In this document: in pieces, positions 15,235 through 30,502 of the stretch
How the letters are laid out: every line of letters starts with the position of its first letter
Numbering within the stretch: position 1 is the stretch's first letter
Source of the DNA: an uncultured Hyphomonadaceae bacterium
GTDB lineage: Bacteria > Pseudomonadota > Alphaproteobacteria > Caulobacterales > Maricaulaceae
Reading direction: 5' to 3'
DNA length: 64,000 bases
Assembly: GCA_913058335.1 (NCBI GenBank)
Contig: CAJXPX010000001.1
Span: 118,618 to 182,617 of the forward strand
The notes under the pieces: generated by a model
The model's database searches: none
Seen by the model: only the letters and a program-made list of their open reading frames with translations
What the model was told of the DNA's origin: nothing
Program-made: the position numbers and the translations under genes

Positions 15235-15708
15235 TTAGCTAAACTTAGGATGTAAATGGGCATGACCTTTATGTTCATGTGCATCATGTTGGTGATGGTG
15301 ATCATCCAAACTGACCCCGATAATATTTACAGAGCCAAACCCGACTCCGCGCTCCGTTCGCAAATTATTAGCAAGCGAACGAACATCTTTAGTTAAGCCA
15401 TGTAAAATGACGCATTCAAGACTATGGTCATGATCTAAATAAACGCGCGAGGTTGAGACGATTAAATCATGGTGGGCATGATGGATATCAGACAATCTTT
15501 CCGCCAAAGTTCGAATTGTGCGGTTGAATATGAAAGAGACTATCCCCACACAGTAAGCCGGATCTTCTGGTTTGGTTTTCTCGGCTTTCAATGCATCGCG
15601 TATAAGATCCCGTATCGCTTCTGAACGGCTCTCATATCCGTTCCGAGAGATATGATCCTCAAATTCTTCGGCCAGAGCATCATCAACTGAAAGAGTAATA
15701 CGTTGCAT
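15235..15708 (-). CDS. nikR: NikR-like ribbon-helix-helix metalloregulator with His-rich C-terminal tail
   Basis: MQRITLSVDDALAEEFEDHISRNGYESRSEAIRDLIRDAL is a typical NikR RHH domain; ACT-like NikR C-terminal domain HHAHHDLIVSTSRVYLDHDHSLECVILHG; tail DDHHHQHDAHEHKGHAHLHP. ATG at 15708 preferred over the TTG at 15726. Confidence 0.88.
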   Translation of the reverse strand: MQRITLSVDDALAEEFEDHISRNGYESRSEAIRDLIRDALKAEKTKPEDPAYCVGIVSFIFNRTIRTLAERLSDIHHAHHDLIVSTSRVYLDHDHSLECVILHGLTKDVRSLANNLRTERGVGFGSVNIIGVSLDDHHHQHDAHEHKGHAHLHPKFS

Positions 15709-15820: not shown

Positions 15821-15848
15821 GTAAGAAGAAAATATAAAAAGTTCTTAC
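15821..15848. promoter_or_regulatory. Candidate NikR-type operator (variant half-sites)
   Basis: Perfect inverted repeat GTAAGA-N16-TCTTAC in the nikR/operon divergent region; E. coli NikR operator is GTATGA-N16-TCATAC (same 6-16-6 geometry). Confidence 0.6.
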
Positions 15849-15870: not shown

Positions 15871-16413
15871 ATGAAATTATCGATTACAAAACTCTTAAAG
15901 GCGTCTCGCGGTTTAAAATTTTTCAGCTGTTTTTTTACGGTCTTTTTAGGGGTTAGTCTTTTTCTCGCCCAGACCGCACAGGCCCACGCCCCTAGCTGGT
16001 CAGTCGAAACTGAGGCCGCTCCCATCATTCTTCGCTTTACCTATACAGACGGAAAACCCATGTCATTTTCCAAGGTTAGGGTTCTTTCACCCGACGGCGA
16101 GATTTACCAAGTCGGCAATGCGGATCGTGAAGGCTATTTTTCTTTTATTCCGCGCGGGTATGTAGAGTCCACAGAGTCAGATTCAGCTCCTCTCTGGACA
16201 GTCTTGGCCATTGGAGATGAAGGGCATGAAATAAAAGCTGAAGTGTCTGCTGAAGCCTCCACAAACATTCAATCGCGCCAATCCTCAATGTCGTCAGCTC
16301 TGGCTTGGTTATTGGTTGTTAGCGTTCTTCTCAACTTCGCTTTTTTAGGGGCAAAACTGGAACGCCTCCTGAGCGGTCGTTCTTCTGGAACCCCGTCCAA
16401 TTTGAAAGCCTGA
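15871..16413 (+). CDS. Periplasmic carboxypeptidase-regulatory-like protein with C-terminal TM (NikL/CbiL-like accessory protein)
   Basis: Signal peptide; APSWSVETEAAPIILRFTYTDGKPMSFSKVRVLSPDGEIYQVGNADREGYFSFIP; C-terminal TM helix. Confidence 0.6.
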   Translation: MKLSITKLLKASRGLKFFSCFFTVFLGVSLFLAQTAQAHAPSWSVETEAAPIILRFTYTDGKPMSFSKVRVLSPDGEIYQVGNADREGYFSFIPRGYVESTESDSAPLWTVLAIGDEGHEIKAEVSAEASTNIQSRQSSMSSALAWLLVVSVLLNFAFLGAKLERLLSGRSSGTPSNLKA

Positions 16414-16415
16414 AA

Positions 16416-18455
16416 ATGAAATTTGCAATTGCCTCAATAAGCATCTCCGCATTGATGATAAGCCAGATCAGCTTTGCCCATGCCCAGAACAATCCAGAAG
16501 CAGAGCCCCTCCTCGCGCCGCAAACCCGCGTAATTGATACGATTACAGTGAAAGGACAGATATTCAGAGGCGTTGAATCTTCATATTCTGCGACAGAAAT
16601 TTCTTCCGAGGATATCCGGATTAAACGCGTTAATGAAGTGAATGAACTTTTGGAAGATGTTCCGGGTGTCAGTGTGCGCGATTTTGGCCTTGGCGGTGTC
16701 GCCAGCTCAACCGTAATTCGTGGCTTTGGTAATGGAGCGCATGGCGGCGATCTCGGCGTCGTTATTGACGGCATACCGTTGAACGAAGCTAATTCTCATG
16801 CGGACGGGTATGTCGATTTGAATGTTATTGTTCCCCTTGAAGTCAAAGATTTGACTGTATTCCGAGGTCCTGTCTCAGCGCTTTACGGAAATTTCAACCG
16901 CGGCGGCTTAATCGCGCTCGAAACCCGAAACTCAGGAAACTATACCGAAGCAGATATTAGCGCAGGGTCTTTTGACACATTTGATGCCCAAGCTGCTTTC
17001 GGGAAAGAGGTCGGCCAAAATCAAGCGTATAATTTCGCCGCGCAATACTTCCGCACAGATGGTTTCCGGCCCCAATCAGACGCTGAACGCGGAACAGTTT
17101 CAGGCCGAGGTCAATTTCAACTCAATCCAAAGATAGACCTCTCCCTATCAGGTCGATATCACGAAGCAGAGGCAGACTCAGCCGCTTACACAACGCTCCA
17201 TCAGTTTGAAACTGATCCTTACGGCATAGACCCGCGTGTGCAAAATGACGGCGCGGAAAAAACATTCGGCACGCTTCGCGCTGATCTTGGTTTTATATTA
17301 AATGACACCAACAAACTCCTGACTTATGCCTATGGTACGCAACAGGATTTCACGCGCTGGTTTTCCAGAGGGGGAGCTGACGCCCCGAGCTGGAGGCAGC
17401 GCGAGGAAACGTATGACCGTGATGTTTATGGCCTTGGCACAAGCCTAAATGGACGGGTTGATATTGCTGGCCGTGAAATCGCTTACGTCGCCGGAGTTGA
17501 GCATTTCGGCGAAGCGACAGAATTTCAGTTCTATGATGATTTGGATAACCGCCGCCGCACCTTCCCGGCCGAGTTCAACCGGGAATCCACGCTCAACAGT
17601 AATGCGCTTTTTGCGGAAGCTGATATTGCCCTAACGGATCGCCTAGACCTCTCGCTCGGCGTACGAGCAGACGAATTTGATGGCGACTGCGAACCTTTGG
17701 GGCCCGAAACTGGGGCAGAAGCTTGCGGAGAGCTAGAAAGCGTGAGCAATGTTAGTCCGAAAATCGGTCTGCGCGCGCAGCTTCTGGATCAAGTTCAGCT
17801 GCGTGCAAGTTATTCCGAAGGTTTTGCTTTGGCGAGCGGCTTCGCGAAATTTGCGTCTGGCGCTCAATCCCTTGGGGTGAATGGACTTCGCCAATATGAA
17901 ATCGGGGCGACAATCAACCCTGCGCCTTCGGTCAGACTTGATCTAGCACTTTACGACATCACCTCTTCAAATGAAATCAATGAAGTGACGCCGGGAGAGT
18001 TTGTCAATTTTGGGGAAACATCCCGGACGGGATTTGAATCCAGCTTGGCTTGGGAAATTTCGGATCAATTTCAAGTCAAGGCGGTCTATGGCTATGCCGA
18101 CTCTGAAATCGATGAAAATCTAAATTCAGCTCTCATCGGAAATCGTGTCAATGGCGTGCCAGAGCATACCGCGACACTAATTGCCACTTACTTTCCAATT
18201 CCAGATCTAAGGTTTACGGCGACGGGTCGTTATATCGGAGAGTATGATATCGATGCCGCCAATACAATGAGGTCTGAGGATTACGGCGTTCTAGACCTTG
18301 ACGCAACGTATCGCCTTAACACGAAGTCGCCGACAAACCTCTTCATCAGCGTCGATAATGTGACCGATAAAGTTTACGCGACAATTTTCAACAGTTTGGG
18401 CGCGTCAGCTGGGGCACCTCGCGCCGTCTTTGCTGGAGTGCAATTCGGCTTTTAA
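16416..18455 (+). CDS. TonB-dependent outer membrane receptor (candidate metal-complex receptor)
   Basis: Signal peptide, plug domain (VNEVNELLEDVPGVSVRDFG...VIRGFGNGAHGGDLGVVIDGIPLN), barrel with C-terminal aromatic FAGVQFGF. Confidence 0.92.
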   Translation: MKFAIASISISALMISQISFAHAQNNPEAEPLLAPQTRVIDTITVKGQIFRGVESSYSATEISSEDIRIKRVNEVNELLEDVPGVSVRDFGLGGVASSTVIRGFGNGAHGGDLGVVIDGIPLNEANSHADGYVDLNVIVPLEVKDLTVFRGPVSALYGNFNRGGLIALETRNSGNYTEADISAGSFDTFDAQAAFGKEVGQNQAYNFAAQYFRTDGFRPQSDAERGTVSGRGQFQLNPKIDLSLSGRYHEAEADSAAYTTLHQFETDPYGIDPRVQNDGAEKTFGTLRADLGFILNDTNKLLTYAYGTQQDFTRWFSRGGADAPSWRQREETYDRDVYGLGTSLNGRVDIAGREIAYVAGVEHFGEATEFQFYDDLDNRRRTFPAEFNRESTLNSNALFAEADIALTDRLDLSLGVRADEFDGDCEPLGPETGAEACGELESVSNVSPKIGLRAQLLDQVQLRASYSEGFALASGFAKFASGAQSLGVNGLRQYEIGATINPAPSVRLDLALYDITSSNEINEVTPGEFVNFGETSRTGFESSLAWEISDQFQVKAVYGYADSEIDENLNSALIGNRVNGVPEHTATLIATYFPIPDLRFTATGRYIGEYDIDAANTMRSEDYGVLDLDATYRLNTKSPTNLFISVDNVTDKVYATIFNSLGASAGAPRAVFAGVQFGF

Positions 18456-18501
18456 TTTCACTTTGAAATATATCTCACCTTTAACCATTACAGAGAAAAT
18501 T

Positions 18502-19218
18502 ATGTTAAAACGGTTTATGTTACTGGCGTCTGGACTGACCCTTCTATGGTGTCCGTCAGCCTTCTCTCACACAGCTTGGTTCGTACCTGTTGAGAGCGGC
18601 CTGACGGATACGGCGCAATACCAAATTTATTTTGGAGGTCACGAAGGCAAGCTGGAAGGTTATTCCGCTGAGAAAGTAAAAACCATCTCCGCTATTGACG
18701 TAAATGGTGCGCCCCTAACCGTTTGGCGAACAATGGATGACGACAAAATGCAGATTCGTGCCGAGGGTATGCCCGCCATGCTACTTATGCACTTCGATAA
18801 TGGCATTTATACTCGTACCGCAGAGGGTGACAGCGTAAATGTGCCAATGAGTCAGGTCGAAGATCCGATTTCTGCGGTCAATGCTATCAAATACCATAAG
18901 ACTATTAGTCTTTGGACAGAGGTCGTCACAGAGGCTCAAGGACAACCATTTGAAGTCGTGCCGATGAGCGGCGAGGCCCCAAAAGCGGGTCAACCAATGA
19001 AAGTAAAAGTCCTGATAGACGGCCTTCCAGCAGAAGACATAGAAATTGGGACAGGAGAAAACACGTCCGAGACGAAAACAGATGCGGATGGCATGGCGAT
19101 GTTCACACCTGCCTCAGGCTTTAACAAACTTTGGGCTGGAAAAAGGACACCTGTCAAAGACAATCCCGACTATACGGAATCAAGCGTAGAATATCTATTC
19201 ACGTTTAACGTCGAATAA
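18502..19218 (+). CDS. DUF4198/NikK-like periplasmic protein
   Basis: Signal peptide ending CPSAFSHTAWF; TKTDADGMAMFTPA, typical of DUF4198. ATG at 18502 avoids overlap with the receptor gene. Confidence 0.75.
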   Translation: MLKRFMLLASGLTLLWCPSAFSHTAWFVPVESGLTDTAQYQIYFGGHEGKLEGYSAEKVKTISAIDVNGAPLTVWRTMDDDKMQIRAEGMPAMLLMHFDNGIYTRTAEGDSVNVPMSQVEDPISAVNAIKYHKTISLWTEVVTEAQGQPFEVVPMSGEAPKAGQPMKVKVLIDGLPAEDIEIGTGENTSETKTDADGMAMFTPASGFNKLWAGKRTPVKDNPDYTESSVEYLFTFNVE

Positions 19219-19261
19219 TAAAGCTATAACGCCGTTTAATTCTTGGTATAAGGCTTCTGAC

Positions 19262-20434
19262 GTGTCACACTTCTTCAAAAGCTCAGCCATCTGTAGAACA
19301 CCCCTTATCGGGGTATTCTTAGGGTTTGCTGGCGCTCTGATTTTGATCAGTCCTCTGGGAAGAGGTCAGCCGGGAAAATACGGTTTTGCCCCTGGAGAAA
19401 TACCCCCTGCCGTTCAAGGCGCCATGTCAAGGCTCGGCGCAAACCCTGATGACCCCTCTGTCACTTTAGAGGTTGCCAAAACATTGATAAATCAAGGACG
19501 TATGAGAGGCAATTCGGAGGTCGTCGCCATTGCCGACAATCTTCTGACCTCAATGAAGGACGGCAAAAATATGGCCGAAGCATTGAAGTACCGCGCTATT
19601 GCCCAACAATATCTTCATGAATTTGACGAGGCTTTAGAGCTTCTTGAGCTGTCGCTTTCTCTGAACGGAAATGATCCCACGGCGCTTTTAACACGCGCTA
19701 ACATACTTTTGGTTCAGGGCAGAACGCTGGAGGCCAAAACTGCATGCCGCGCTCTGGCCAAGACTGGACGAGCGGATTTACTTTTACTCTGCGATACAAC
19801 AGCAAAAGCGCTGGGCCCCGAAGCACTAATGGCCGCAAGTCGCTTAAACGCGATGATCAAGTCCGGCCGAATGGATCCGGCTTTGACAGGGTATGGCTAT
19901 AGCGTGCTGGGGGAAATCGCGATGTTTCAGGGCGACGACAAACTAGCGCAAAGCCTGTTTGAAAAAGCCCAGATTGCAGATCCCGAAAACCTAAGAGTTC
20001 GAGCATTGCATGCGGACAGCTTTCTCGCCCTGGGCCAGCCAGAAGCTGCGATAAACGCTTTGGACGTAATGGCAGATACTGACGCGCTGCTCGTTAGGCG
20101 CGCCATCGCGTTCAAACTCGCTGGCGACGCTGCATCCCTTTCCCGTATAGAAAGTGAATTTTCCAGCAGAGTGCAGAGTAATCTGCAGGAAGGGCATATA
20201 GGTCACGCACGAGAAGAAGCCAGATATTTTCTTGAGGTCACAAATGAACCTTCCAAAGCGCTCGAAAGGGCAAAGTTAAACTGGAAGGTTCAAAGAGAGT
20301 TTGAAGACGCTTGGCTTTTAATTGACTCGGCCAGAGCGGCAAATGCATCGGATGAATTAGATACGGTGCGAAGCTGGATGCGCGCCGAAACCGTGGTAGC
20401 TCCAGAACTGGTTTCGCGTCTCCCGCGGGATTGA
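19262..20434 (+). CDS. TPR protein, CcmH/NrfG-like, membrane anchored
   Basis: N-terminal TM; repeats such as AEALKYRAIAQQYLHEFDEALELLELSLSLNGNDPTALL. GTG start. Confidence 0.72.
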   Translation: MSHFFKSSAICRTPLIGVFLGFAGALILISPLGRGQPGKYGFAPGEIPPAVQGAMSRLGANPDDPSVTLEVAKTLINQGRMRGNSEVVAIADNLLTSMKDGKNMAEALKYRAIAQQYLHEFDEALELLELSLSLNGNDPTALLTRANILLVQGRTLEAKTACRALAKTGRADLLLLCDTTAKALGPEALMAASRLNAMIKSGRMDPALTGYGYSVLGEIAMFQGDDKLAQSLFEKAQIADPENLRVRALHADSFLALGQPEAAINALDVMADTDALLVRRAIAFKLAGDAASLSRIESEFSSRVQSNLQEGHIGHAREEARYFLEVTNEPSKALERAKLNWKVQREFEDAWLLIDSARAANASDELDTVRSWMRAETVVAPELVSRLPRD

Positions 20435-20469
20435 ATTTACAATCAGACAATTTGAAATGAGCTTTAACA

Positions 20470-21090
20470 ATGAATCAAACAAATAAACGGCTGCCTCATA
20501 TCTCTCTTAGGGTGAAAGCTCTGACGGCTCTTTTGGGCGCCTTTTTTCTCGCATTTCCCGCCTTTGCCCACACGGGTGAAGGTTTGGTGGGGGGCTTCTA
20601 TAGTGGTTTTCTCCACCCTGTCTTAGGGTGGGATCATGTTGCAGCTATGGTTGCTGTTGGCCTTTGGGGCGCCTTTCTTCGGGCCCCGGCCATTTATATA
20701 CTTCCCATCGTTTTTCCCGTCATCATGGCATTAGGCGGCGCGGCGGGTGTTGTCGGCGCGCCTTTGCCTTATGTCGAAATTGGGATAGCGCTTTCGTCCG
20801 TCCTCTTAGGCTTATTGATTGCCTTCGCTGTGAAATCACCGCTCTGGTTAGCGACCGTCATTGTCGGCATTTTTGCCGTCTTTCATGGTCACGCTCACGG
20901 CACTGAACTACCCCAAGCATCCAACGCTATGAGCTTTTCTATTGGCTTTGTTCTCGCAACGGGACTGCTACATTTGCTGGGTATTGGCTTGGGTGTTTTT
21001 ATTGGCCGCCCCGGCGGAAAAATTGCCGTTCGCGTTATGGGAGCTTTGATCGCCTTGGCCGGGTTTGGGTTCCTATTTGGCATAATTTAG
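20470..21090 (+). CDS. HupE/UreJ family membrane protein
   Basis: AFAHTGEGLVGGFYSGFLHPVLGWDHVAAMVAVGLWGA, FHGHAHGTELP, GLLHLLGIGLG: HupE/UreJ hallmarks. Confidence 0.92.
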   Translation: MNQTNKRLPHISLRVKALTALLGAFFLAFPAFAHTGEGLVGGFYSGFLHPVLGWDHVAAMVAVGLWGAFLRAPAIYILPIVFPVIMALGGAAGVVGAPLPYVEIGIALSSVLLGLLIAFAVKSPLWLATVIVGIFAVFHGHAHGTELPQASNAMSFSIGFVLATGLLHLLGIGLGVFIGRPGGKIAVRVMGALIALAGFGFLFGII

Positions 21091-21105
21091 AGTTGGAACA
21101 CGTAA

Positions 21106-21648
21106 ATGCTCCTTGAAAATTGGACGCCAGGATTTATTCCAAACACGGTTAAAGCAGGCCAAATCCTACTCGGTATCGGAGCAGGTTTACTCTTTGGTAA
21201 TCTCAAAATGTTGCCGCCTTCAAAAGGGGTGACGACAGGTCTGATGCTTTTATTATCCGGTCTTGGTTTAGGTTTCGGAACCGCCTTTTTCATGGACGGC
21301 AGTCTAACGCTCATTTTACTCTTTTCATTGACCTTAATATCAGGTGGCGCGGTTGCCGGGAATCTGACACATACATATTTAATCCCCTTCGCTGCGTGGC
21401 TCTGTTTTTTCACCTTGGGTCTTTCAAGCCTCCCCTCCGGTGGTCATTTCCCAGCCAGCGCGAGTGTCGTTTTAGCAAATATAATCGGACTTATCTGTTT
21501 AATCGGAGGGGCCACCACCCTCTCGCATTGGGCAACCCATCGTCAAGCTGACCTATGGCCTAAAATTGGAGTACGAATTTTAGGGTCGTGGTTACTCGCC
21601 ATTGCGGTTTTAATGCTAACGTTCGAATATAAAACTATAGTTTTTTAA
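21106..21648 (+). CDS. Multi-TM membrane protein of metal operon
   Basis: 180 aa, several hydrophobic helices, directly follows the hupE-like gene. Confidence 0.7.
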   Translation: MLLENWTPGFIPNTVKAGQILLGIGAGLLFGNLKMLPPSKGVTTGLMLLLSGLGLGFGTAFFMDGSLTLILLFSLTLISGGAVAGNLTHTYLIPFAAWLCFFTLGLSSLPSGGHFPASASVVLANIIGLICLIGGATTLSHWATHRQADLWPKIGVRILGSWLLAIAVLMLTFEYKTIVF

Positions 21649-21913: not shown

Positions 21914-22726
21914 TTAATTCAGTCTGTAAGCTACAGGTACAGTAAACGTAAGATCCGTTCCCTTTAACTCATCCGGAGGTTTAGGAAATGGCGAAACCCT
22001 CTCAAGTAATTCAAGGGTTGCTTTATCCAGAACTCTGTGTCCCGCCCCCTCGACTATACGTGCTTCCAAAAGATTTCCATTTACATCAAGTCGAAACCAA
22101 ACCTGGACGACTCCCTGCATACGGCGAGATCTAGCGCGGTGCGGATAACGTTTATGTTTTAACAGCCACGCCTGTAATGTTCCGGCAAAGTTTTCTTTGC
22201 CCTCTGCGACGCCAGAGGAGACACCGAAATTTGCCTGTGACGCAGAAGGTTTTGGAGCGGATTGATCTGAAGCGGAGGACTTAGTTTGCGTGGCAGTCGA
22301 GGGTCGTGCCACTTTTTCAGGCTTAACTTCTGAATTTGACGCTGGAGTCGTTGGGGCAATCTCCACCATTTTCGTCACCGAAGGGATTTCAAATTTCTCA
22401 ATAGGAACAATTGGATCGACCTTAGATTTTGGCTTAAATTTGAGGTTAGGTTTAGGTTCTAACTCGGGCTTGGGCTTGGACTTGGGCTTGGGCTTGGGTT
22501 CAGGTTTTTGTTCTGACGCTGATTTTGAAGGCGGCTTTGAAACCTTCTCTTTCACAGGCGACTCTAGAGACCCTAGCGGCGGAAGGATAATTTCATACTC
22601 GACCGGTTCCAGTTCTGGTACTGTCTTTGGCCCAAAACTTATGGCAAAGTAAGCTCCTGCATGTGCTGCGGCCGCAAGAAATAATGCCCCCCCCCAAATC
22701 AAACTTTTGCCAACAGAGCCATGCAT
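21914..22726 (-). CDS. tonB: Energy transducer TonB
   Basis: N-terminal TM, Pro/Lys/Glu-rich spacer (KPKPKSKPKPELEPKP), C-terminal domain YPHRARSRRMQGVVQVWFRLDVNGNLLEARIVEGAGHRVLDKATLELLERVSPFPKPP. Confidence 0.93.
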   Translation of the reverse strand: MHGSVGKSLIWGGALFLAAAAHAGAYFAISFGPKTVPELEPVEYEIILPPLGSLESPVKEKVSKPPSKSASEQKPEPKPKPKSKPKPELEPKPNLKFKPKSKVDPIVPIEKFEIPSVTKMVEIAPTTPASNSEVKPEKVARPSTATQTKSSASDQSAPKPSASQANFGVSSGVAEGKENFAGTLQAWLLKHKRYPHRARSRRMQGVVQVWFRLDVNGNLLEARIVEGAGHRVLDKATLELLERVSPFPKPPDELKGTDLTFTVPVAYRLN

Positions 22727-23148
22727 TATCGGCTCTCCTTTAGAGATTCAGTTGCCAGCCTTACCTTTGTAATGCCGACTTTTCGAAGACTGTCCATAAG
22801 AGCTACGATTTCAACTGTTTCGATTCCCTTATCGGCCACAATCCGCACAGGTCTGTCAGGGTTACCCTCTAATATTTGTTTTAGCCGCAGAGGCACATCC
22901 GATTTTTCAGTTGCTATTTGTTCCAAAACGATATGCGCGTCTGCATCTATATAGAGATTAATGGAGTCCTCCGGACTAATGTCTTCAACAACTGATTCCG
23001 GCGGAAGAATATCCATCGGGTCGGCTTCCCGAATAATACCTGCTACGAGAAAAAAGATTAGCAGAAGAAAGACAATATTGATGAGCGGCATGATTCGGTC
23101 GTCAATGCTTGGTTTTTCGACTTTTTTTGTAAATTGGGACAGCTTCAT
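22726..23148 (-). CDS. exbD: ExbD/TolR biopolymer transporter
   Basis: DDRIMPLINIVFLLLIFFLVAG; RPVRIVADKGIETVEIVALMDSLRKVGITKVRLAT. Confidence 0.9.
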   Translation of the reverse strand: MKLSQFTKKVEKPSIDDRIMPLINIVFLLLIFFLVAGIIREADPMDILPPESVVEDISPEDSINLYIDADAHIVLEQIATEKSDVPLRLKQILEGNPDRPVRIVADKGIETVEIVALMDSLRKVGITKVRLATESLKESR

Positions 23149-23546
23149 GGAGCTTTCCTCGCTTGAACAAGAGAAGTCGGGCCAAGGTCATATTTCTTCA
23201 ACTTGTCCATTACAAAAACAGTGTCTTCGAGCACAACTCCCGGCGCTATTTCGATCAATACTCCGGTCACTGAATCGCTAGTCTCGGACAAAGCTTTATC
23301 CAATTTGTCAATCTGTATAGACTTTCCTCCAATGCTCAAATTCGACTGGGTCATTTTTATCCTAAGGATTTCAGGGTCAGTTTCCTTCGGTTCTGAGGCT
23401 GCGACAGGGGAGTTTAGTCCCAAAACAAATCGATCCGAAAAGGTTGAGGTCAGCATAAAGAATAACAGCAGAATAAACACCACATCTATGAGCGGTGTTA
23501 AACTGATGCGAGACTTCGATTTAGGCGCTGTAATTGCGAGCTTCAT
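23145..23546 (-). CDS. exbD: ExbD/TolR biopolymer transporter (second copy)
   Basis: SRISLTPLIDVVFILLLFFMLTSTF. Confidence 0.9.
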   Translation of the reverse strand: MKLAITAPKSKSRISLTPLIDVVFILLLFFMLTSTFSDRFVLGLNSPVAASEPKETDPEILRIKMTQSNLSIGGKSIQIDKLDKALSETSDSVTGVLIEIAPGVVLEDTVFVMDKLKKYDLGPTSLVQARKAP

Positions 23547-24246
23547 CTTTAGCTTTTGAAATTGTTTCAGTTGGACGATGGTTATTTAAGTCAGGCGCAA
23601 AAATACTGGTCACAGCATTTTCTGTCCGTAAGGCCGTATTCATAATTTTACGCTCAAACCAGCTCACAATAGCCACAACTGGAATTGCAACAATCAATCC
23701 GGCCGCAGTCGTCAGAAGCGCCGCCCAGATACCGCCCGAAAGGACTGCCGGATCAACATTTCTTCCAGCCTCTTCCATGGCGCGAAAGGCCTGTATCATT
23801 CCCATAACGGTTCCCAGCAATCCAAGCAAAGGAGACAGAGAGCCAATCAAATCAAGCACAGAAAGGTGGGCCCTCAGTTTTGTCATCTCAGTTGTAGCAA
23901 TGCGCTCAACTTCTTCTCGAACAGCGGCTTCCGGAATGTCGCATCGTAAATGCCCTCGGATTGCCGCAGTCATTGCCCGCGCGGCCGGATCTTTGGCCTC
24001 CTGAACTGATGAGAGGGCTTCCTGCGCATGTCCGTCCCTAAACAGGACAACGGCCCGATCGATATGGGCACGGCGAAATACACCTGTCGATAAAAACTGG
24101 TAAAGTTTATAAAGCACAATTGTCAGGGCGATAACGGATAAAATAATGAGCAGCAATACGACCGGCCCCCCCGCCGATATAAGGTCGCTCGTTTCATTCA
24201 GACCTTCTGTGGTCTGCGTCGGAATTTCTGCATCTTCAATTTGCAT
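23521..24246 (-). CDS. exbB: MotA/TolQ/ExbB proton channel protein
   Basis: LDLIGSLSPLLGLLGTVMGMIQAFRAMEEAGRNVDPAVLSGGIWAALLTTAAGLIVAIP. ATG at 24246 preferred. Confidence 0.92.
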   Translation of the reverse strand: MQIEDAEIPTQTTEGLNETSDLISAGGPVVLLLIILSVIALTIVLYKLYQFLSTGVFRRAHIDRAVVLFRDGHAQEALSSVQEAKDPAARAMTAAIRGHLRCDIPEAAVREEVERIATTEMTKLRAHLSVLDLIGSLSPLLGLLGTVMGMIQAFRAMEEAGRNVDPAVLSGGIWAALLTTAAGLIVAIPVVAIVSWFERKIMNTALRTENAVTSIFAPDLNNHRPTETISKAKDEARNYSA

Positions 24247-24263
24247 AATCAGTAATTCACCCG

Positions 24264-25004
24264 TCAGGCATCCGCCCAACGACGGACAAGGTTATGATAT
24301 ATAGACGTTAGGTCGACCACGCTTTCATGATCGGGGTTTTCAATATTTAATTTTTGAATTGTTGTATCGAGATCGAACAAAATGCGCCTTTTCCCTTCAT
24401 CTCGCACCATACTTTGTATCCAGAAAAAAGAGGCTACGCGGGCCCCGCGTGTGACTGGCAAAACTCTGTGTAAACTCGACGACGGATAGAGAATTAAACT
24501 TCCAGCAGAGAGTTTGACGGAATGCGAACCGTAAGTGTCTTCGATGACCAACTCTCCCCCGTCATAATCATCCGGTTCTGCCAAAAAAAGAGAGGCAGAT
24601 AGATCCGTACGGATACGGAAATCCTGACCTTTGACAGGGCGAATGGCATTATCGACATGATTACCAAAAGTTTGACCGCCTTCATAACGGTTGAATAAAG
24701 GCGGATAGACCTTATGCGGCAAGGCAGCGGAAATAAAACGCGGGTTACTCTGTAAAGCATCCAATATAAAATTTCCCGCTTTGCGAGTAATGTCAGAGCT
24801 CTCCTCCAATTGGGCATTTCGCTTTACTTTTGCCGCCTGTGGACCTGACGTGACATTTCCGTCCACCCATTGGCCAGAATTGATTACATCCCGTAAGCGG
24901 GACACATCATCTTTTGTAATGATATTTTCAATACTAACGAGCAAAGAGAGCTCTCCTATTGATAACGGAGCGAAAGGTTTCGCTCCGTAAAATTTTAAAA
25001 TCAA
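24264..25004 (-). CDS. Fe(II)/2-oxoglutarate-dependent PKHD-type hydroxylase (PiuC-like)
   Basis: Body typical of PiuC ([33 protein letters not shown]); Hx[12 protein letters not shown] and distal [18 protein letters not shown]. True start uncertain. Confidence 0.88.
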
Positions 25005-27262
25005 TAACGGAAATTCAAGCTTCCGATCACAGTTCGTCCGGCGGCAACTGTCGCCATATGCGTAGTATATACCCGCTCATAATAGCGCTTATCCGTCAAA
25101 TTGTTTACATTCAACTGGAAGTCGATATTTTTCGTCAATTCGACAGACGCCATGGCATCAAACCGAACATATCCATCAACGCTTTTTGTATTTGCCGTGT
25201 TCCCGAATCGCTTGCCTTGGTAAAAGGCCCCGCCGCCAACCTGAAAACGGTCAAGTACGTCATAACTCGTCCAGAGAGAAACGCTGTGCTCCGGTGTATT
25301 AGGTAGGCGGTTCCCAACTTGGTCTGTGTTGATCGGTCCAGCATCAATGATTTCCGAGTCCAAATAGCTATAGCCTGCAAATACATTCCATTCCGGCGTT
25401 ATATTTCCGGTTGCACTTAATTCCAAACCCTGCGTCCGTTGTTCTCCAATCGCCTCCTGAGGAGCTCCACGCCCTGCGGCAGTTGCGACATATCCGTCCA
25501 CAACTTCATTCCGGAAAACAGCCGCATTGAGCGAAATATTCCCAGCGCCGGGTTCCCATTTTACGCCAACTTCATAGTTGCGGTTTTTCTCAGGGTTTAA
25601 GTCTTCATTAGTGCCAGACAAATTATTCCCACCATCCCCTATCGTGACACCGGCCGGGCTGGCAGAGGTCGCGTATGAGGCATAAATACTGGTATTGTAA
25701 CTAGGCTTATAAATCGCACCCAATTGATAGCTGAAAATTGTCTCTGAATTGGAAAGCCCGCTCGACGTTTTTGTATCAAAATCGTCAACCCGTAAACCGA
25801 TATTTGCAATGAACTTTTCAGAGATATCAATCGAGTCAAACAAATAAGCCCCATAGGTCTCAGCCTTAGTATTCGTTGGATCATTCAGAGTGATTTCTCC
25901 CTGCCAAGGGTCATTCGGATTTGGGTTAAATAAATCCGTACAATTATAACCGCTCGGAGCTCCAGCCCCAAATTGGTCACATCCGCCCCGCGGAATTTCC
26001 ACTCCACCCGCAGCCGACTGATCCACGGAATAGCTTCCCCGATCCGTCTCTTCATGCGTATATTCTACACCGGCTGAGAAACTATGAGCGAATGAGCCCG
26101 TATCAAAATAAGCTGTAAAGTCTGTTTGGTTAGAGAAAATATCACTTTCGGAGTTTGTACTTTTGACAACGCGGCGAACTAACCCATTATTCAAGTTTCC
26201 CTGGGAATCGTCTGGATTGGTTGCGATATAAGCCAAGTTAGTATTTGTCAGCCTGGAAATATTGCGTACACTTACACTATCGTTGAATGCATGTTTAACT
26301 TCGAACTGACCGCTGTCCAATTCTGTATCATTAAAGTCCCGGCCCAAAAGGCCGTAGAAATTATCCGGATCAATTCCTTCCACAGGCTCTCCCGTAACGA
26401 GGTCAAGCGGATGACCATAATCGATAATTCCTTCACTTTCATAATGAGTATAAAGCGCCGATATTTGTGTAGGCCCTTCCAGACCATAGGTAATAGATGG
26501 AGAAATTCCAAAACGCTCGTCAAAGACACCGTCACGTCCTACGATGTCGGTATCATGGCGCATTACATTGAGACGAACCCCAAGGTTATTTCCGGTGTCT
26601 CCAGAATTCATATCCAGAGTACCGCGAAAATAGTCACCGTTCCCCGCGCCTAAAGATCCTGCAACAAAGCTGTCAGCTTTCGGCGTCTTGGTAACGAGGT
26701 TGATACTACCGCCTGCCGCGCCGCGTCCCGCCAAAGGCCCACTAGCCCCACGAACAACTTCGACCTGCTCTAGATTAAAAACGTCACGAACTTGCGCACT
26801 CGAATCGCGTAGTCCGTCAACCAGAATACCAGCAGTAGATTCTGATCCGCGAATAAAAGGGCGATCTGCAAGTGGTTGCCCGCCCTCACCCATAGCCAAT
26901 GTAATGCCTGGGACGTTCCGAAGTGCTTCCGCCAAGGTTGTAGCTGACCGGTCTTCTAGAACCTCTTCTGTAACGACGGTTACAGAACGTGGTGTATTGA
27001 TAAGTGGCGCTGTATATTTCGGATTATTTGGCTCCTCTTTATAATTCGACTCATCCGCTTCAATGCCGACCTCTTCAATTCGGATTGGGTCTGAAGTCGT
27101 TGTTTCACTATTTGAAAGCTGTGATTGCGCAAAGGCCGGCGCTGCAAAAAAGCTCATTGCAGTACTCAAGACGACTCCTTGCGCAATTTGATTCTTTCTA
27201 GATCGATTAAGCCGATCCTTTGGTCTATTTTGGTAAGATGACATTTCTGTATTTTCCCTCAT
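25001..27262 (-). CDS. TonB-dependent siderophore receptor (Fiu-like)
   Basis: Plug [47 protein letters not shown]; barrel ending VIGSLNFRY. Start could be 27262 or 27244. Confidence 0.92.
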
Positions 27263-27315
27263 ATTCAAAATGTATTTGCGAGCTACTCGCAATCTCAACA
27301 AATATCAACCCTTAA

Positions 27316-27330
27316 TGCGAATTATTCTCA
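27316..27330. promoter_or_regulatory. Fur-box-like site upstream of siderophore receptor operon
   Basis: TGCGAATTATTCTCA (reverse complement TGAGAATAATTCGCA), 11/14 matches to TGATAATnATTATCA by eye. Confidence 0.6.
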
Positions 27331-27389
27331 ATATTAATATATAGAAAACACTTGGATGCTTTTGAATTTATGGAATTACTCAGATTGCC

Positions 27390-28415
27390 CTAAAGTCTTA
27401 GGCTCTGCGCAGCCACCGAATAAATAGACTCGCCTCCAACCCGTTGAAAAACAGCCATCAAGTTTCGGTCTTCTGATAAAGCCAAGCCGTCCTTAAGACC
27501 CAAAGCGAAAAGAGCCGTTGCCCAGCCATCTGCCCATAGGCAATCCTTATGAAGCACTGATACGCAAGACAGATCTGGATCATTTTTTTCCGTCCCGATG
27601 ACGCTTCCGGCCGGGACAATATGAGAAATTCGTCCCGTCTCAGTTTTTTTTAACTGACGAAATGCACCTGATGTTGCGACGGATAAATTGAACAGCGCTA
27701 TTCTGATTGGAACGTTAGAAGGGCGGTGCTTATAACTTTCTTCAAGGCTTTCTTGTTCAAGATCGACCCACCAAGGTAGCCCATCCGGTTTAGCGCCACT
27801 CCCTCGAAACTCTCCTCCGATTTCAGTAAGGCATTGTGTGATACCCATTTGATGCAAAGCCGATGTCATCTCATCAACAGCATAGCCTTTAGCAATAGCG
27901 GAGAGATCTAGTCGGACGCCACCCGGCTGATAAACAACCCCCTTCTTAGGAGTTATACTCTCCCATATGTCAGAGCCGTGAAGCCCTTTTTCGTTATTGA
28001 TACGAGAAACATCTGAGCCAAAGCCGCGCTCGGCAATCAAACCGCCATATGTAGGATCGAATGCCCCTTGGCTCTCTCGGGCTAAATTAAGAGCATCCCT
28101 CAAAACTTTTTGGAAATCTGGGCCTATTTCTAAATTTGATCCAGCCGGCAATTGATTGAAACGAGAAATTTCGGACCCGCTCTCCCAAGTACTCATTTGC
28201 TTTATGATCCGGTTAAAAACCGCATGTAACTTCATCTGAACGTCTTCGTCCAAAATAGATTTTGGCGCACACCATTGTACCGACCATTCCGTCCCCATCG
28301 TTTGACCGGAAAGCCGATTTCGCAGAACAAAGCCGGGTCGAGTCGTCAGCCCGGCCCGGCTCATATTTTGCGGGATTAGAATTTCGCCGACACCTTGAAT
28401 GGCCATAAACTCCAA
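27390..28415 (-). CDS. apbE: FAD:protein FMN transferase (ApbE)
   Basis: GTEWSVQWCAP, LDLSAIAKGYAVDEM, CLTEIGGEFRGSG, SVATSGAFRQ, CVSVLHKDCLWADGWATALFALG: ApbE motifs. Start may lie downstream. Confidence 0.92.
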   Translation of the reverse strand: MEFMAIQGVGEILIPQNMSRAGLTTRPGFVLRNRLSGQTMGTEWSVQWCAPKSILDEDVQMKLHAVFNRIIKQMSTWESGSEISRFNQLPAGSNLEIGPDFQKVLRDALNLARESQGAFDPTYGGLIAERGFGSDVSRINNEKGLHGSDIWESITPKKGVVYQPGGVRLDLSAIAKGYAVDEMTSALHQMGITQCLTEIGGEFRGSGAKPDGLPWWVDLEQESLEESYKHRPSNVPIRIALFNLSVATSGAFRQLKKTETGRISHIVPAGSVIGTEKNDPDLSCVSVLHKDCLWADGWATALFALGLKDGLALSEDRNLMAVFQRVGGESIYSVAAQSLRL

Positions 28416-28427
28416 ACAAGGTCTCGA

Positions 28428-29243
28428 TTAAAACGGAAGTGCTTCGAATGTCATAATATAAGAAGTTCGTGAACTAATCTCCTTACCATTCAACATCGCC
28501 TTGCCATCCACCTCGGCGCTGAGCCAATACGGTCCGGCCTCTTCCAGAGTAAAATTAATCATTCCATCTGCGTCAGTCGTCAAGGCCTTAGCGCCTTCAC
28601 TATCACGATAGCGGTCATGTCCACGTACAATTTCAATTTCGACCCCATTGGTTGCTTCTCCGTTAAGTGTAAATGAGAAGCTAACTTCTTCGCCCGCATA
28701 GATATCATTAGGATGCGTGCCGGAAGCTAGCTCTAGTCCCTCTCCTGTTTTCGTAAAGGCACTTTGACTTGGAGCCCCAAGCGTGACGAAGGTCATATTA
28801 GTCCGGTCATTTTTCGAAATTCTAACTCCCGGTTTATCGGCTATATTTTCATTGGCTAATTCTTCTTCTGTACCGCGCCAGCGGCGGCGTTCGCCGTCTT
28901 CTTCCCAACTCGCAAAATATCCTGACCCTTGGCTACCAATACGGTAAGTTCCCTCTTGTACCAAGGGCACATCAAACACAGATCTATATTCACCTGTAGA
29001 GACATCCTCCATCTCAATATTACTGCCATCCGGGCCCGTCACAGAGACTTGCTCCAGTGAAAGTGCGTGATGGTTGGGGTAGAATAAATTATTCGAAATG
29101 GCAGCGTCCACAGTAATGCGCTGATTTTCTCCCGATAATGTGAAACTGGAGGGAAGTATCCAAGCGCGATGGGCAGATGCCTGTCCCGCGAGAAGCAGAG
29201 CAGCGCCGGTTAAAAGTAATGTTTTTCCGAATTTATAAGTCAT
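28428..29243 (-). CDS. DUF4198 domain-containing periplasmic protein
   Basis: Signal peptide AGQASAHRAWILPSSFTLSGENQRITVDAAISNNLFYPNH; TTDADGMINFTLEEAGPYWLSAE. Confidence 0.85.
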   Translation of the reverse strand: MTYKFGKTLLLTGAALLLAGQASAHRAWILPSSFTLSGENQRITVDAAISNNLFYPNHHALSLEQVSVTGPDGSNIEMEDVSTGEYRSVFDVPLVQEGTYRIGSQGSGYFASWEEDGERRRWRGTEEELANENIADKPGVRISKNDRTNMTFVTLGAPSQSAFTKTGEGLELASGTHPNDIYAGEEVSFSFTLNGEATNGVEIEIVRGHDRYRDSEGAKALTTDADGMINFTLEEAGPYWLSAEVDGKAMLNGKEISSRTSYIMTFEALPF

Positions 29244-29289
29244 GGGTGTTTCCAGTTTAGTAAATTTTGGTTAAAATGAATGGGAGGCA

Positions 29290-29814
29290 TCAGTCTATAG
29301 AACTAATGAGGGCAAGCTGAACGGCCCCTAACTCTGTTTCGCCCTCAGCCATCAGTGTTTGTCCGGCTTGCAAGGGCCATTTAAACGGTACATTGACCAT
29401 TTCTCGTCCGCCGACTTCTCGAACAGATTCGATAACGAGTGTATAGGAACCCGGGTCCAGATCTGCGAAGGGCCCCGACCTAGTATCGAATGTCATATCA
29501 TGTGCGCCCGGCGCGTGAGTGGGGCCGGAGAGACCATCTTTCGGCATCTCTATTGAACGACCGGCACGGCGCCACCATTGGCGTAAATCTTTTAGCCAGG
29601 TCTCGCCTTCATCACTGCCGCGCTTTTCGAGCTGATACCAAACGGCTAAGTTAGCGGCCACACTATGATCTTCTTTGGCGATCCATGCCGCAACATAAGG
29701 TTTGTGATATTCCGCGACATCCAGTTCGGGTATGGTCACGCCGACTTTAATCTGGTCCGCCAGTGCCGGACTAGCCAAGAGGCTCGCCCCAGTTACCGTT
29801 AATAAAAATCTCAT
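29290..29814 (-). CDS. DUF2271 domain-containing periplasmic protein
   Basis: Signal peptide; KPYVAAWIAKEDHSVAANLAVWY...WLKDLRQWWRR...DGLSGPTHAPGAHDMTFD. Confidence 0.85.
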   Translation of the reverse strand: MRFLLTVTGASLLASPALADQIKVGVTIPELDVAEYHKPYVAAWIAKEDHSVAANLAVWYQLEKRGSDEGETWLKDLRQWWRRAGRSIEMPKDGLSGPTHAPGAHDMTFDTRSGPFADLDPGSYTLVIESVREVGGREMVNVPFKWPLQAGQTLMAEGETELGAVQLALISSID

Positions 29815-29821
29815 TTAAGCC

Positions 29822-30502
29822 TCACATATGAACAAATAAAATTAAAAGACCAACCGGAACAGCCAATCCTCCCCCCGCAAGCCACCACGTGGATGCGCGT
29901 CGTTTGGAATGAATTTGCAAAAGCCATAGACCCGACAAACAAAATACGATTGTGGCTACTGCAAAAACATCCAAAAACCAGCTCCAAGCCGTGCCCGTAT
30001 TCCGGCCTTTATGAAGGTCATTCAAATAAGACACGGCCCCGCGAGACGTCTCTTCAAAAAACACTTTTCCAGTGGCACGGTCTATACTTAGCCACGCGTC
30101 TCCTCCGGGGCGCGGCATTGGGATATAGACATCGACATCAGTCCATTCCGGAATTTCGTTACCAATCCGTATGCCAATGCCGCGGCGAATATCCCGGCGT
30201 AGTAAAGCCGGCAAAAGCGTTCCGTCTTTTACATCTCCGCCGAGCTCCGCAAGATCTTCGAGCGCAGACGCCTCTAGCGTCATTTCACTTTGGCTCGTTT
30301 TCGGGCTCGCCTTGATTTGTGCCGCATGATTTAAAGTAATTCCTGTTATTGCAAATAAAACCATGCCGATCAGACACATCGCCCCGGACATCCAGTGCCA
30401 AGTTCTAACCTGACGTTTCCAGAAGCCAGGGGGAAACCTTCCTGCGCGGCTCATATTGTCTGTCCATAGAAAGAATAATCTTGGGTCAACTCTCTTGTCC
30501 AA
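29822..30502 (-). CDS. PepSY-associated TM helix protein
   Basis: WHWMSGAMCLIGMVLFAITGITLNHA; WLSIDRATGKVFFEETSRGAVSYLNDLHKGRNTGTAWSWFLDVFAVATIVFCLSGLWLL. Confidence 0.85.
   Translation of the reverse strand: MDKRVDPRLFFLWTDNMSRAGRFPPGFWKRQVRTWHWMSGAMCLIGMVLFAITGITLNHAAQIKASPKTSQSEMTLEASALEDLAELGGDVKDGTLLPALLRRDIRRGIGIRIGNEIPEWTDVDVYIPMPRPGGDAWLSIDRATGKVFFEETSRGAVSYLNDLHKGRNTGTAWSWFLDVFAVATIVFCLSGLWLLQIHSKRRASTWWLAGGGLAVPVGLLILFVHM

Follow-up and report, generated by a model that had tools for sequence, protein, structure and literature searches.

A NikR homologue lacking the canonical nickel site beside a predicted nickel/cobalt uptake operon of a Hyphomonadaceae bacterium

NikR is the textbook nickel sensor, and its homologues are annotated on their fold. 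What, then, controls a NikR homologue that has lost the residues holding the nickel? This question is raised by a gene in a 64,000-nucleotide stretch of DNA (the window) from an uncultured Hyphomonadaceae bacterium, in which the metal site appears dismantled while the DNA-binding half of the protein, a NikR-type palindrome and a nickel/cobalt uptake operon stay in place. Since the nickel-holding residues have been lost by pinpoint changes, control by some other means is to be expected. The gene and the relevant positions of its product are listed below, with residues numbered as in Escherichia coli NikR; the own numbering of the window protein is higher by one after an extra linker residue.

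15235..15708, minus strand: nikR-like gene, ATG start, 157 aa, with an RHH DNA-binding domain, a NikR_C domain and a His-rich tail
15520..15522, minus strand: Arg at E. coli position 62, equivalent to H74 of Helicobacter pylori NikR (HpNikR); His in the 106 canonical homologues
15478..15480, minus strand: His76, a kept ligand, the one that the neighbouring subunit donates
15445..15447, minus strand: Arg at E. coli position 87, ligand lost (alignment to 1q5v)
15439..15441, minus strand: Tyr at E. coli position 89, ligand lost (alignment to 1q5v)
15421..15423, minus strand: Ser at E. coli position 95, ligand lost (alignment to 1q5v)
15358..15360, minus strand: Arg at E. coli position 116, also in the relatives L109 and L110 and in 0/106 canonical homologues
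15247..15306, minus strand: His-rich C-terminal tail DDHHHQHDAHEHKGHAHLHP, of a type common among canonical NikRs

Both Pfam domains are recognized in the window protein (RHH_1, 3e-8; NikR_C, 9e-21), and E. coli NikR (1q5v) aligns with it at a phmmer E value of 1.4e-23. The alignment, described as gap-free in the initial annotation, is nearly so, its sole gap being one extra residue of the window protein in the linker between the domains. An AlphaFold model built from 40 homologues (pLDDT 85) finds its best PDB matches among NikR entries, and its metal domain superposes on Ni-bound E. coli NikR (1q5y) at 0.7-0.8 A over ~80 columns. The nickel ligands of E. coli NikR are H87, H89, C95 and H76' (PMC7055735). 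This square-planar His3Cys set is incomplete in the window protein, where the corresponding residues are R, Y, S and H; the retention of H76 together with H87R, H89Y and C95S had been proposed from the sequence, and the phmmer alignment to 1q5v reproduces it exactly. Superposition of the model on 1q5y reveals no intact H/H/C set elsewhere in the domain, and H62R constitutes a further metal-site loss that had been overlooked. Judged by the aligned residues, the canonical high-affinity nickel site is unable to form in this protein. A second, canonical NikR elsewhere in the genome is rejected because the genome search returned a single NikR_C gene.

The rest of the protein has kept R3, T5, R28 and R33, which contact DNA, as well as E30, D34, H76, H79 and E97. 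E30 and D34 are the acids of the low-affinity/K+ site, both present here; in DNA-bound E. coli NikR, K+ sits at the domain interface on these two residues and the carbonyls of 116, 118 and 121 (PMC7055735). Rigidity analysis of HpNikR indicated that the equivalents of 87, 89 and 95 are strongly coupled to the interface and that of H76 weakly (PMC9860126). Of these four ligands, the window protein retains only the weakly coupled H76; the three with strong coupling are gone, as is H62.

The concentration of these changes was assessed in 131 NikR-like proteins collected from alpha-, beta- and gammaproteobacteria among the matches listed, with Sphingomonadales chromosomes left out. The canonical set comprises the 106 proteins with intact H62/H76/H87/H89/C95, in which 25 columns are near-invariant (each at least 95% conserved), five of them belonging to the metal site. 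The window protein deviates at only 5 of these 25 columns, namely 62, 87, 89, 95 and a mild Y58F. The hypergeometric value for the concentration on the metal site is 0.002 (0.0004 for L109/L110) and is conditional on the 106 having been chosen by the same five residues. On this comparison, the metal site of the window protein is the object of targeted loss rather than of general erosion. At position 123, where 93 of the 106 canonical homologues carry His, the window protein has Phe.

Among the matches listed, the check for relatives with the same ligand loss yielded two, from Sphingobium sp. V4 (L109) and Novosphingobium sp. RL4 (L110), both Sphingomonadaceae and both plasmid-borne, that have lost the ligands at 87, 89 and 95. 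They share with the window protein its 157-aa length, a gapless alignment and about 46-50% identity (50% over the matched part for L109, 45.5% for L110). R62, H76, R116, F123 and the His tail are common to the three proteins, which differ at 87/89/95 (L/R/S in L109, L/R/G in L110). Their shared gains are thus Arg62, Arg116 and Phe123, with no new His, Cys, Asp or Glu in common. L109 and L110 are 79% identical to each other, and with a dN of 0.126 against a dS of 0.98 (dN/dS 0.13 overall, about 0.10 in the metal domain) the ligand-less protein is, on sequence grounds, under purifying selection in this pair. Both genes lie tail to tail with a HoxN/NixA-type Ni/Co permease, one locus also carrying a different TonB receptor. 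The suggestion that these variants define a clade always placed at the same TonB receptor operon is borne out as regards the adjoining Ni/Co uptake genes but fails on the transporter, which is of another type.

Whether the three proteins descend from one event was addressed with trees. In a quick tree the window protein groups with L109, L110 and the canonical NikR of Polymorphobacter (L111) with an SH-aLRT of 97; in a careful tree it is not grouped with them and its terminal branch is long. L111 falls near L109/L110 in the trees, and a clade of the window protein, L109 and L110 is not rejected by the AU test (p 0.71). Given the shared R62/R116/F123 and the identical length, a single origin for the three appears likely. 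To account for the distribution of canonical and altered ligand sets over the whole tree, at least 9-10 changes from one to the other are required, implying that ligands have been lost more than once. No relatives were found in viral contigs.

At the DNA level, the region between the nikR-like gene and the divergent genes contains a candidate operator.

15821..15848, no strand: predicted operator GTAAGAA-N14-TTCTTAC, a perfect 7-N14-7 palindrome in the divergent intergenic region

It is the sole perfect GT-starting 7-N13/14-7 palindrome within the 64-kb window, and when the intergenic stretch was shuffled 5000 times, such a palindrome arose in 6 cases. The layout is also that of enterobacterial and deltaproteobacterial NikR sites, whose half-sites differ from this one (PMC545781). 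The predicted 28-bp inverted repeat, located upstream of the nickel uptake operon, fits this NikR 7-N13/14-7 layout; no palindrome of the kind was found upstream of the L109 and L110 genes. The operon itself runs divergently from the nikR-like gene, from 15871 to 21648.

15871..16413, plus strand: NikL-like component, 180 aa (NCBIfam NF058648, E 5e-10, below its cut-off)
16416..18455, plus strand: TonB-dependent receptor, 38% identical to the receptor of the Massilia nikR operon
18502..19218, plus strand: NikK-like DUF4198 protein, 33% identical to Massilia NikK
19262..20434, plus strand: TPR-repeat protein inside the Ni/Co uptake operon, without an obvious role
20470..21090, plus strand: HupE/UreJ family permease (Ni/Co; Pfam PF04955, E 1e-55)
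21106..21648, plus strand: 180-aa protein without a family match, last gene of the same-strand run

NikK and NikL have been proposed as periplasmic parts of nickel transporters (PMC545781). The gene run of Massilia niastensis (L077) consists of TonB receptor, NikK, NikL and NikMQO and closes with a canonical nikR. NikK (DUF4198), a NikL-like gene whose match stays below the curated cut-off and a TonB receptor are all present in the window operon, the NikMQO ECF transporter being absent and a HupE/UreJ permease standing in its place. By analogy with the matching Massilia operon, this is a Ni/Co uptake set with HupE where NikMQO would be expected, and its relatives point to Ni/Co rather than Zn or Cu as the cargo. 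A second, convergent TonB-type locus at 21914-30502 on the minus strand encodes TonB, two ExbD, ExbB, a PKHD-type hydroxylase, a TonB receptor, ApbE and a PepSY membrane protein; it is iron-related in appearance and separate from the nickel cassette.

Both regulator and receptor are rare around this organism. A scan of 136 other genomes of the family returned just one NikR_C gene, distant and of a deep type, and a sample of 200 genomes of the order contained deep-type NikR_C genes plus one canonical NikR (L003); the receptor, at E 1e-80 or better, was found in no other genome of the 398 in the order. This rarity fits with the idea that operon and regulator were acquired together by horizontal transfer. 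On plasmids, the best match to the receptor is merely 23%. The search for nickel enzymes in the genome, which covered urease alpha and the NiFe hydrogenase large subunit, returned neither. Rfam identified no B12 riboswitch, which would be a pointer to cobalt, either within the window or next to any of the variant genes.

Among known systems, the window protein resembles E. coli NikR (1q5v, 2hza, 2hzv) in domain order, fold, R3/T5, the E30/D34 site, H76 and the layout of the 28-bp inverted-repeat operator; unlike it, it lacks H62, H87, H89 and C95, has R116, F123 and a His-rich tail, and is encoded at a TonB/HupE-type uptake operon. The closest laboratory counterparts of its ligand losses are engineered HpNikR mutants, 2wvb with A, A and S at 99, 101 and 107 (E. 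coli 87, 89 and 95) and 3pht with H74A (E. coli 62), in which the nickel-site positions mutated in the laboratory are those changed by evolution here. In contrast to these mutants, the window protein is natural, carries Arg and Tyr rather than Ala and is apparently under selection. The tailed canonical NikRs of alpha- and betaproteobacteria, such as L077 and L111, share with it the His-rich tail and a divergent or adjacent TonB receptor, L077 also the NikK and NikL genes, but they retain H62/H76/H87/H89/C95. A deep NikR_C family of Caulobacterales and other alphaproteobacteria (L004-L011, L027, L028) has the same fold and has likewise lost ligand columns; it differs in being changed at E30/R33/D34, only 25-28% identical, placed in a urea carboxylase context and set on a separate branch. 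Most nickel ligands are gone in that family (S/G/A/L at 76, F89, S/A95), and one of its members, L005 1471-1953, lies directly before urea amidolyase-associated genes. Urea amidolyase is a nickel-free urea route.

Other altered NikR homologues are scattered over the collection: L086 3025-3522, L101 10001-10453, L084 1968-2465, L068 10001-10480, L078 10001-10471, L073/L079 10001-10483 and L093 410-880. Their ligands at 87/89/95 are altered in part or completely (M/P/R, Q/Q/R, R/R/C, R/H/C, H/R/C, Q/H/C), and they are probably independent events; in several cases TonB receptors, NikKLMQO-type genes or a HoxN-type permease still lie alongside. In L025 (1498-1905), a NikR-like protein encoded divergently from hupE, erosion is heavy (R76, Q87, P89, Y95, H62 lost). 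L112-L131 come from one alphaproteobacterial order (the order of G259), some genomes of which (such as G708, G699 and G694) encode two or three NikRs whose ligands are intact.

Very probably, the window gene encodes a NikR-type regulator of Ni/Co uptake that is functional and lacks the canonical site. The mechanism proposed is that this NikR-derived repressor would bind the 28-bp palindrome at 15821-15848 and control the putatively horizontally acquired Ni/Co operon of NikL-like protein, TonB receptor, NikK-like protein, TPR protein and HupE. Its square-planar picomolar nickel site would have been selectively dismantled through H62R, H87R, H89Y and C95S, with the DNA-reading and domain-interface residues kept. 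The fold, the ligand loss, the constraint in the relatives, the operator layout and the operon context are established by sequence or by model; repression, the tetramer, the metal input and the alternative site are what we infer from them. As the operon is still Ni/Co-import-like, the input would most likely still be Ni or Co, at lower affinity, and sensed at a remaining weak site made up of the His cluster H76/H78/H79 with H92/H94, the interface E30/D34 site and the His-rich tail. A target of the Ni/Co-uptake type and relatives under constraint indeed suggest that some input should persist. H76, H79 and H92 are present in all 11 ligand-altered, H76-keeping homologues of the main NikR branch, but they are equally conserved in canonical NikRs, so their retention is no proof of a new site. 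Besides, a genome without urease and NiFe hydrogenase leaves the nickel demand unexplained, which counts against a nickel input. The whole statement, regulator plus metal sensing through a weak site, is held tentatively, with doubt slightly outweighing belief.

The shared gains fit at least as well with a repressor that has become independent of metals, as they comprise Arg62, Arg116 and Phe123 and none of a metal-binding type. Arginines would then replace the metal ions and keep the protein in a DNA-competent state, R62/R87 (R62/R89 in L109/L110) at the nickel site and R116 beside the E30/D34 K+ site, while the regulatory signal would be a different one, for instance protein level, pH or a partner. 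Of the 11 ligand-altered homologues that keep H76, 8 carry at least one Arg among positions 62, 87, 89 and 95 (the window protein, L109, L110, L068, L078, L084, L086 and L101), and R116 occurs in the window protein, L109 and L110 alone among the collected homologues. In E. coli NikR, the backbone carbonyl of residue 116 coordinates K+ along with E30/D34 (PMC7055735). Furthermore, apo-HpNikR binds DNA more tightly when any of several residues away from the metal site is mutated to Ala (PMC9860126). However, Arg is mutationally easy to reach, one base change sufficing to turn His or Cys into it, the remaining 3 of the 11 carry Gln and no Arg, and an uptake operon under a permanently active repressor would have no obvious use. 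A metal-independent repressor, the main rival to the weak-site reading, is rather unlikely, and so, by a shade more, is the general view that NikR-fold repressors have repeatedly swapped metals for arginines to become nickel-free, DNA-competent Ni/Co-uptake regulators answering another input.

Distinctly improbable is a change of metal specificity, in which Zn, Cu or Co instead of Ni would be recognized by a site rebuilt within or close to the former pocket (Y89, S95, H94, H92, C98, H76). Tyr, Ser, His and Cys are potential ligands located at or close to the old site, but no new ligand set is common to the relatives: Y89 is R and C98 is S in L109/L110, and S95 is G in L110. In addition, the relatives of the operon are Ni/Co systems, and no Zn or Cu gene adjoins it. 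C98 and H94, initially put forward as replacement ligands, are rejected as distinctive ones, the former being private to the window protein among the collected homologues and the latter occurring in 15 of the 106 canonical homologues as well. The claimed gain of a His-rich tail does not stand either, since at least four His follow position 130 in 93 of the 106 canonical homologues (median 5, up to 13); this set leans to relatives of the query, and the tail is equally common in a taxonomically even sample of the class. Being found in most canonical NikRs, the tail is no distinguishing mark of the window protein, although in both it may act as a metal binder. Finally, that the regulator is relaxed or decaying, its metal site drifting towards loss where nickel control has become unnecessary, is very improbable: the missing urease and NiFe hydrogenase, the long terminal branch and the plainly eroded gene by hupE in another genome (L025) would agree with it, but the open frame is full-length, DNA-contact and interface residues are kept, the losses do not extend beyond the metal site, purifying selection appears to act on relatives that share them and the palindrome is perfect.

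Returning to a functional regulator without the canonical site, there is a consequence for annotation. The window protein scores 144 bits against a cut-off of 83 with NF002815, 109 against 105 with NF003381 and 127 against 175 with TIGR02793. As NF002815, a curated NCBIfam equivalog for nickel-responsive NikR, accepts it, automatic annotation will label it NikR; the NCBIfam NikR models ignore ligand loss, and a match to NF002815 is no proof of a nickel response. With the defining site absent at the tested positions, the protein should not, on its sequence, be filed as a nickel-responsive NikR, and it serves as a warning that nickel regulons are not assignable from homology alone. The sequences suggest that the window protein and its kin are a small, constrained and recurrently arising kind of NikR homologue. 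For metalloregulator specialists they would represent natural equivalents, kept by selection, of the HpNikR ligand mutants 2wvb and 3pht, and the window protein offers a direct test case of whether nickel binding is the sole means of holding NikR on DNA.
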